From contig CAKQBG010000058.1 of the NCBI GenBank assembly GCA_934216145.1, positions 1 to 11,262 on the forward strand: a DNA stretch of 11,262 nt, written 5' to 3'. The notes below the pieces were generated by a model that was given only the letters and a program-made list of their open reading frames with translations, made no database searches and was not told the origin of the DNA. Numbering within the stretch: position 1 is the first letter of the stretch; every line of letters begins with the position of its first letter. Source of the stretch: an uncultured Anaeroplasma sp. (GTDB lineage: Bacteria > Bacillota_I > Bacilli_A > Acholeplasmatales > Anaeroplasmataceae). Made by a program: the position numbers and the translations under genes. Positions 4,966 through 7,044 of this stretch are shown one piece after another.

Positions 4966-5001
4966 AAAGGAGGAGCTTTTTTATAAAAGCTAGAAATATA
5001 T
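4966..5001 (+). promoter_or_regulatory. gyrB ribosome binding site split from the start by a hairpin
   Basis: AAAGGAGG at 4966-4973 is a full Shine-Dalgarno, but the gyrB ATG is 28 nt downstream. The gap holds AGCTTTT (4974-4980) and AAAAGCT (4985-4991), a perfect 7-bp stem with loop TTAT that begins right after the Shine-Dalgarno. Folding it leaves 10 nt (4992-5001), close to normal spacing. A TAA in the gyrB frame at 4984-4986 excludes a longer protein, and no ATG, GTG or TTG lies in frame between it and 5002. Bacteriophage T4 gene 25 is a known case where a hairpin shortens such a gap. Confidence 0.65.
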
Positions 5002-7044
5002 ATGGAAGAAAATGAAAAGATAATTGAAGCTAGTAAAGAGGAAATAGCTGAATTAACTGGTAATAATCCGGATGCCAATAATTATGGTGCGAAAAATATT
5101 CGTATTTTAAAGGGTCTTGAGCCAGTACGTGAAAGACCAGGTATGTATATTGGTTCAACAGGTAAGACAGGTTTACATCATCTAGTATGGGAAATTACAG
5201 ATAACTCAGTAGATGAAGCATTAGCTGGATATGCATCTCACATTAAGGTTGAAATTTTACCTGATGATGCATCTAATAAGGAGCATCCTGCTAACATAAT
5301 TAGAGTTACAGATGATGGTAGGGGTATGCCTATTGATTTACACCCTGAGACAAAGCGTCCAGCGTTAGAGGCTATTTTTACAGTATTACATGCTGGTGGT
5401 AAGTTTGATGATGGTGCATATAAGGTTTCAGGAGGTTTACATGGTGTAGGTGCTTCTGTTGTTAATGCGTTATCTGAATGGCTTGAGGTTACTGTTATGC
5501 GTAATGGTAAGATGTATACAGAAAGATTCGAGCGAGGAGTTGTTTCAAAAGACCTTTATGAGCATGATACTAGTGAGGCTACTGGTACTATTGTTACTTT
5601 TAAGCCTGATTATGAGATGTTCCATGAAACTTTAATATTTGATTATGAAATGATTCGTGAAAGAATGCAAAAGACTGCATTCTTAAATAGTGTTTTAACT
5701 ATTACAGTTGAAGATAAGAGAAATCCTGATAATGTTGTTTCTGAATCCTTCCATTATGATGGTGGTATTAAGGAATATGTTAATTTCCTTGGTAAAGGTA
5801 AGACATTATTAAGTAATGATATTATTTATACTAATTCAATTGGATCTTATAAGGAATTAAATAGTAATGGTGATGAGGTTAAAAGAGATGTTATTATTGA
5901 GGTTGCAATGCAATATAATACTTCATATAATTCTACTATTTATTCTTTCGTTAATAACGTTACTACAACTGAGGGTGGTCATCATGAGGAGGGCTTTAAG
6001 CTTGCTTTATCTCGTGAAATCCGTAAGTATGCTGAAAATAATAAGCTTTTAAAAAAGGATGAGGAAATTACAAGAGAGGATACTCTTGAGGGATTAGTCG
6101 CAATTATTTCAATTAAACATCCAAATCCTGAATTTGAGGGTCAAACAAAGTCTAAGCTTGGTAATCCTGAAGTTAGAGGCTTAGTTAATAAGGCTTTTGG
6201 TGAGGCATTAGAGCGATATTTAGCTGAGCATCCACAAGATGCTAAAACTATTATTGAGAAGATTTTAGCAGCTTCTCGTGCTAGAAAGGCTGCTCAGGCT
6301 GCAAGAGATGCTACTCGTAGAAAATCTCCATTAGATAATTTAATGTTATCGTCTAAATTAGCTGATTGTAGATGTAAGGATCCTTCTAAATCAGAAATGT
6401 ATCTAGTAGAGGGTGATTCTGCCGGTGGTTCTGCAAAGTCTGGTAGAAATTCAAATTATCAAGCAATTTTACCTTTAAGAGGTAAGGTTTTAAATGTTCA
6501 AAAGGTTCAATTAGCTAGAGCATTAGAAAATCAAGAAATTCAAACAATGATTCGTGCTATTGGAACAGGAATTGGTGAAGAATTTGATATTACAAAGGCA
6601 AGATATCATAAGGTTATAATTATGACCGATGCCGATGTTGATGGTGAGCATATTTGTATTTTATTATTAACCTTCTTCTACCGTTTTATGAGAGGCTTAA
6701 TTGAGGCTGGATATATTTATGTAGCAAAACCACCTCTATTTAGAATTCAATTTGGTAAGCAAATGGATTATGTTTATAATGAAGAGGATTTAGATAAGCT
6801 TAAAAAGAGTAAATATTCTGGTAAGAAATATGATGTACAAAGATATAAGGGTCTAGGAGAAATGGACGCTAAGCAATTATGGGATACTACTATGGATCCA
6901 AAGTATCGTACATTAACACAGGTTCATCTAGAGGATGCCCAGGTTGCAGATATGACTTTTGAAATGCTAATGGGTGAAGAGGTTGAGCCTCGTAAGATAT
7001 TCATTCAAGAAAATGCTCATTTTGCAGATAATCTTGATATTTAG
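5002..7044 (+). CDS. gyrB: DNA gyrase subunit B
   Basis: GyrB is the ATPase subunit of the gyrase A2B2 complex, which introduces negative supercoils. The 680 residues show a GHKL ATPase domain with [11 protein letters not shown] (63-73; E64 and N68 as base and Mg ligand), DDGRGMP (104-110) and [16 protein letters not shown] (143-158), a transducer domain, then TOPRIM with [17 protein letters not shown] (467-483) and DADVDGEH (543-550). The C-terminal part has [21 protein letters not shown] (613-633). The first 30 residues form an acidic leader longer than in B. subtilis GyrB (about 638 residues in total). The usual DADVDG(S/A)HIRTLLL reads [14 protein letters not shown] here: Glu549 and Cys552 replace a small residue and an Arg, while the metal-binding acids are intact. 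The start is fixed by the in-frame TAA at 4984. It lies 43 bp after recF and 14 bp before gyrA. ParE is the alternative, but position next to recF and gyrA favours GyrB. Confidence 0.96.

Follow-up and report, generated by a model that had tools for sequence, protein, structure and literature searches.

A probable hairpin-bridged ribosome binding site at gyrB and a candidate RNA element upstream of tig in the Anaeroplasma family

Introduction

How might a ribosome reach the start codon of gyrB from a Shine-Dalgarno (SD) sequence that lies 28 nt upstream of it? The question arises in the window, the whole stretch of 11,262 nucleotides analysed here, whose source is, judged by sequence, near Anaeroplasma. 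An earlier note on this DNA proposed that a hairpin closes the gap, with T4 gene 25 as precedent, and that gyrase synthesis could thereby come to depend on RNA folding. To our knowledge, hairpin-bridged ribosome sites are known mainly from phage T4. In the accessible text of one review, structure in the mRNA cuts the SD–AUG distance from 27 to 11 nt at gene 25, with mutational and DMS support, and from 22 to 5 nt at gene 38, with mutational support, the evidence for these genes including reporter data; as far as that text goes, the arrangement is reported in close T-even phages only (PMC3014915). No bridged ribosome site was described for either gyrB or tig in the titles and abstract openings of the literature searched (most subscription papers were out of reach).

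Results

The gyrB start in the window

The gyrB gene (5002–7044, + strand, 680 aa, ATG at 5002–5004) was recognised from its open reading frame (ORF) and its Pfam gyrase B domains. In the ORF list it is preceded by a 343-aa ORF (3927–4958, +), putative recF in the earlier note's naming, whose TGA stop (4956–4958) is 43 nt ahead of the gyrB ATG, and followed by a putative gyrA, so called by gene order (7059–9626, +). The SD, AAAGGAGG (4966–4973, +), is separated from the ATG by 28 nt. Flush with it begins a hairpin, evident in sequence and in predicted fold, with a perfect 7-bp stem (5′ arm AGCTTTT, 4974–4980; loop TTAT, 4981–4984; 3′ arm AAAAGCT, 4985–4991; all +), which takes the first 18 nt of the gap and leaves a 10-nt spacer, AGAAATATAT (4992–5001, +). 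The earlier note's account of the displaced SD, the flush stem and the residual spacer is thus exact in the sequence. Its two further statements on the start also hold: an earlier gyrB start is barred by an in-frame TAA within the hairpin (4984–4986, +), and no SD-like 4-mer was found 3–14 nt before any in-frame gyrB start in the window. An ATA at 4996, a conceivable rare start, stands 22 nt from the SD.

That 28 nt is an abnormal distance and 10 nt a normal one follows from a survey of 2.26 Mb from five relatives, in which the first ATG of each ORF of at least 80 codons was examined for a GGAGG no more than 50 nt away. The motif lay at 4–13 nt in 409 of 435 sites (at exactly 10 nt in 34), at 0–3 nt in 15, at 14–17 nt in 2 and at 18–45 nt in only 9. 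Within the operon itself, the gene after gyrB has its AGGAGG (7043–7048, +) 10 nt before the ATG, and no hairpin.

The best promoter-like match in the window (3666–3694, +; TTGAAA, 17 nt, TATAAT; 11/12 consensus matches) precedes a small ORF, putative recF and gyrB. It is a lead only, because the whole scan yielded fewer sites than expected by chance (62, against 71.2 in shuffles). Among the matches listed, none lay on the + strand between 3931 and 5053, and the scan only suggests that the gyrB transcript carries the SD. A terminator reading of the hairpin was rejected: it is absent from the list of the terminator and promoter scan, and no T run stands behind the stem.

Predicted folding and chance expectation

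Folding the region, a check which the earlier note had proposed, bore out the hairpin and not its surroundings. The 18-nt hairpin alone was predicted at −5.1 kcal/mol (z −2.16), and, when two neighbouring bases were included at either end, at −6.2 kcal/mol (z −2.40); the signal then weakened to z −1.77 over 39 nt, −1.25 over 55 nt and +0.32 over 101 nt, at which length 118/200 shuffles folded equally well. As z fades with growing context, the local stem stands out and the region does not. When the 28-nt gap was shuffled 40,000 times, 2.7% of shuffles contained a stem of at least 7 bp with a loop of 3–8 nt, and 0.9% contained such a stem nearly flush with the SD and leaving 5–13 nt.

RNA thermometers hide the SD or the AUG in a structure that melts. 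The gyrB site resembles them in having RNA structure at the place of initiation, but differs in its predicted behaviour: the SD is open (paired probability 0.019), and the mean pair probability of the hairpin barely moves, from 0.974 at 25 °C through 0.966 at 37 °C to 0.946 at 50 °C. Sequestration that melts was therefore not found at either the SD or the AUG between 25 and 50 °C, and since the model keeps the hairpin formed and the SD open over that range, the hairpin is better read as a structural bridge than as a thermometer. The spacer and first codons are A/U-rich and predicted to be mostly open (paired probability of the AUG 0.20 at 37 °C).

gyrB junctions of other bacteria

A set of 92 distinct gyrB junctions was assembled, the window included, many of them from distant Bacilli and none other from the window's species. 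The nearest relative (L001, an uncultured Anaeroplasma) has a GyrB 95% identical to that of the window, and its genome (G001) shares 79% DNA identity with the window across the 1.1-kb junction; its gyrB start consists of AGGAGG, 6 nt and ATG, with no hairpin. By a permissive test (an SD-like match of at least 4 nt, 3–14 nt from any of several candidate in-frame starts), a close SD-like site was present in 90/92 junctions. The exceptions were the window and L052, from Bacilli, in which none of the in-frame starts had an SD-like site close by and no such hairpin was visible by eye.

The earlier note had looked to related recF–gyrB junctions for conservation of the stem and compensatory changes in it, and here it fared poorly, the bridging hairpin occurring in 0 of the 91 other junctions. 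The contrary case which it named, relatives that have lost the stem and kept the long gap, was not encountered; the relatives are without both. Hairpin and long gap thus appear to occur together in the window's lineage only. As 90 of the 91 others have a close SD and the remaining one has no hairpin, the gyrB hairpin looks like a lineage-specific insertion of a palindrome into an ordinary site. Removal of the 18 palindromic bases indeed leaves GGAGGAG, 8 nt and ATG, an ordinary site, and on this one sequence the simplest history would be an insertion that folds itself out. Since no other gyrB junction carries the hairpin, selection is not visible at gyrB itself.

Two sources for such a palindrome were considered and rejected. 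A dispersed element in the family is contradicted by the finding of AGCTTTTNNNNAAAAGCT once each in just 3/55 family genomes. As to phage, 35 phage records matched the query in part, at 60–80% identity, and none covered 80% of it. In 12 near relatives, a longer pattern of SD plus hairpin was found at 15 places, spread over 8 of the genomes and each with exactly 3 mismatches; the reversed pattern was found at one.

The leader of tig

A survey of ORF starts in the family pointed to tig, which encodes trigger factor. A tig match was present in 52/55 family genomes, and 50 loci were read upstream of tig (L202–L231 and L262–L281; G015 and G041 were left out). By script and reading, 39 of the 50 showed an SD, a hairpin behind it, about 8–13 nt and the ATG (for example L202:1405–1503), while 11 had an ordinary close SD. 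Three loci, L206, L265 and L269, were scored from the alignment, as the script had overlooked their stem or put it in the wrong place.

Bridged tig leaders fell into two classes. For the long-loop class, 26 distinct sequences were compared after one identical copy had been dropped. With kinship ignored, 92.8% of cells paired, against a mean of 81.0% in shuffles, and covariation was 0.397, against 0.179 in shuffles, none of 500 of which reached the native value; registers slid from the proposed one gave at most 0.072. Double changes occurred at 5 of 7 pairs, which 7/500 shuffles matched, and double-changed cells numbered 23, against 7.5 in shuffles. For the short-loop class, 8 of 11 sequences were counted, three in another register being left out and L279 unaligned; 97.9% of cells paired, double changes occurred at 2 of 6 pairs, and covariation, again with kinship ignored, was 0.262, against 0.130 in shuffles (1/500), with slid registers at most 0.149. 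It is the short-loop class that aligns in register with the gyrB site of the window. The tig leaders and that site share AGGAGG, a hairpin directly behind it, about 8–13 nt and ATG; they differ in that the tig arrangement is kept across many species with covariation, and in that long-loop leaders have two complementarities between loop and upstream sequence.

In the long-loop class, stretches upstream of the SD complement both halves of the loop (GGAAT with ATTCC, GAGATA with TATCTC). The native means of the two complementarities, 13.8 and 14.3, exceeded those of all 200 shuffles of the upstream sequence (maxima 11.2 and 11.8) and of all 200 swaps of loops between leaders (maxima 13.0 and 13.7). 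Formed together, the three helices would cross each other and have the SD in their midst; it may be, however, that they are alternatives.

With E allowed up to 1, an Rfam search of 16 of the 50 loci gave no match. Among 160 genomes from the order, a covariance model built for the bridging hairpin had hits in 28, each time just before the tig match; 26 of the hits were training sequences, one was an identical copy (G007) and one was new (G015). No case outside the family was found among these 160 genomes, with strict filters and with the short-loop class outside the model. We put the tig leader forward as a candidate for a new RNA element and regard it as the more remarkable find, ahead of the gyrB site.

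Bridged sites at other genes

A gene with Pfam domains POR_N and TPP_enzyme_C, which we take to be an indolepyruvate oxidoreductase and call POR-type, was bridged by eye in 7/17 loci (L322, L323, L325, L326, L327, L329 and L330), several of which have GGGG-rich docking sites instead of GGAGG. In these seven sequences, one of them misaligned, 89.3% of cells paired and double changes occurred at 3 of 8 pairs. Covariation was 0.179, against 0.065 in shuffles (1/500); a slide of +3 gave 0.190, but with only 62.5% paired. The case for bridging is thinner here than at tig.

Single candidates were found before the genes for pyruvate phosphate dikinase (PPDK; L195:7238–7270, genome G004), Fe-ADH (L125:7883–7918, G001), a uridine-kinase-like protein (L130:3544–3569), a nitroreductase-like protein (L318:4509–4546, G012) and prephenate dehydrogenase (L121, upstream of 18351, − strand). 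PPDK was rejected as a conserved case, 24 of 25 loci being without a bridge by eye and only that of G004 bridged.

Surveys across genes gave a mixed picture. Under loose settings there was hardly any excess, with 22/364 bridged starts against 32/728 control gaps. Under strict settings a flush hairpin was found in 11/34 starts with a far SD, against 1.41 expected from shuffled gaps; control motifs, over six sets, gave 16/167, which is above their own shuffles (6.82), and one purine-rich set reached 4/14, nearly as high as the SD. The Fisher p of 0.0013 (0.0032 without the window) is indicative only, because tig, PPDK and Fe-ADH were already known when the settings were fixed. For the same reason the weight rests on tig, and partly on the POR-type gene, rather than on the survey. 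On reading, 5 of the 11 strict cases look false (L132, L144, L171, L299 and L316). At L132, upstream of 12969 (+), the frame of a membrane-protein-like ORF seemingly begins before its first ATG, at a start 7 nt behind GGAGG that is possibly an ATA codon.

Discussion

The gyrB start of the window is probably a hairpin-bridged, or ‘split’, ribosome binding site of the T4-gene-25 type. In the mechanism envisaged, an 18-nt palindrome would have been inserted just behind the SD of an ordinary gyrB site; in the mRNA it would fold into the 7-bp hairpin and be accommodated by the 30S subunit, and a subunit docked at AAAGGAGG would find the AUG effectively 10 nt away. The hairpin would mainly restore, rather than regulate, initiation. 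What has been observed is the sequence with its geometry and predicted fold, the lack of the hairpin at gyrB in the relatives read, and, elsewhere in the family, genes that retain the same architecture through compensatory changes. Judged by this analogy, bridging is the probable mechanism at gyrB too; we infer that translation uses the bridge, that an insertion gave rise to it, and that its role is more to restore than to regulate.

Like T4 genes 25 and 38 in the available account, the gyrB site combines a distant SD with a structure lying entirely inside the gap that separates it from the AUG, is found in one lineage only, and shows a shortening of similar size (28 to 10 nt, beside 27 to 11 nt at gene 25), so that the precedent named by the earlier note is apt (PMC3014915). 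The abnormal SD–AUG distance, the hairpin wholly between the two and the lack of a competing close SD are all present at gyrB; retention at the same gene in close relatives, which is not strictly defining, was seen in 0/91 junctions, none of the same species. Unlike the T4 sites, this one lies in a bacterial chromosome, at an essential gene, and is known here from sequence alone. At the E. coli thrS split site, in the accessible part of a report on it, a hairpin is likewise within the ribosome-binding region and is accommodated there without unfolding (PMC3936740). The two sites differ in that at thrS a proximal site receives help from a single-stranded domain upstream of it, whereas at gyrB the SD itself is displaced. 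Against bridging counts a statement, in the accessible text of another paper and citing others, that translation is strongly inhibited when a hairpin lies in the upstream 40 bases (PMC4631060).

It is unlikely, although conceivable, that the far SD is dispensable, the AUG being found through its open A/U-rich surroundings and by ribosomes arriving from the stop 43 nt upstream, with an incidental hairpin. The predicted openness of spacer and first codons (AUG paired 0.20 at 37 °C), the case of L052, whose in-frame starts have no SD-like site close by, and the lack of conservation of the hairpin at gyrB would all fit such a start. Yet the window retains a full AAAGGAGG, even a permissive test finds close SD-like sites in 90/92 gyrB junctions, and the covarying stems at tig indicate selection for bridging in the family.

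The suggestion of the earlier note that the hairpin forms a new control layer, making gyrase synthesis respond to temperature or ions (to which a bound protein may be added), finds some encouragement in the tig leader, where complementarity of upstream stretches to both loop halves implies that bridged sites can be part of larger structures. At gyrB itself the loop has only 4 nt, no relative keeps the hairpin, and predicted pairing barely changes on warming from 25 to 50 °C (0.974 and 0.946); temperature-dependent synthesis is thus unsupported, a switch of any of these kinds is very improbable, and the hairpin is more likely to be an insertion that the gene tolerates than a sensor. Barely plausible, finally, is the absence of any RNA device, the palindrome being an assembly artefact or a DNA site such as an operator. 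The hairpin is indeed also a near-perfect DNA palindrome and, among the gyrB junctions read, was seen only in the window's contig; but the matches to AGCTTTTNNNNAAAAGCT in three family genomes showed no order of SD, hairpin and ATG in the contexts read, and among the matches listed there was no + strand promoter-like site close upstream.

If bridging is accepted as the preferred reading, the gyrB site joins a known type, and what is novel is recurrent use within one family, together with the tig leader. Bridging, present at an essential bacterial gene and preserved by compensatory changes at other genes of the family, would then belong to the natural repertoire of bacterial translation, and start-site predictors confined to short spacings could misjudge such genes. 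With its small size, the tig leader offers a testable candidate for an element that controls a ribosome-bound chaperone. More tentatively, and with rather less expectation of being right, one may suppose that the Anaeroplasma family recurrently builds starts from bridged sites, gained and lost gene by gene (gyrB, PPDK in G004, Fe-ADH in G001, the POR-type gene in one group), and that at tig such a site has been elaborated into a conserved pseudoknot-like element, which may set trigger-factor synthesis by switching the SD between positions that are in register with the AUG and positions that are not.

Other features of the window

An Rfam search of the window returned one match, SNORD79 at 9368–9401, with E 0.7 and below the gathering score. 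Positions 637–803, upstream of a 440-aa ORF at 876, hold inverted and direct repeats with TTATCCACA motifs, presumably DnaA boxes, looking like a replication-origin region. Inside the last ORF (9664–11187), a 75-nt stretch occurs at 10173–10247 and again at 10917–10991 with 72% identity, which suggests that the encoded protein consists of two related halves.
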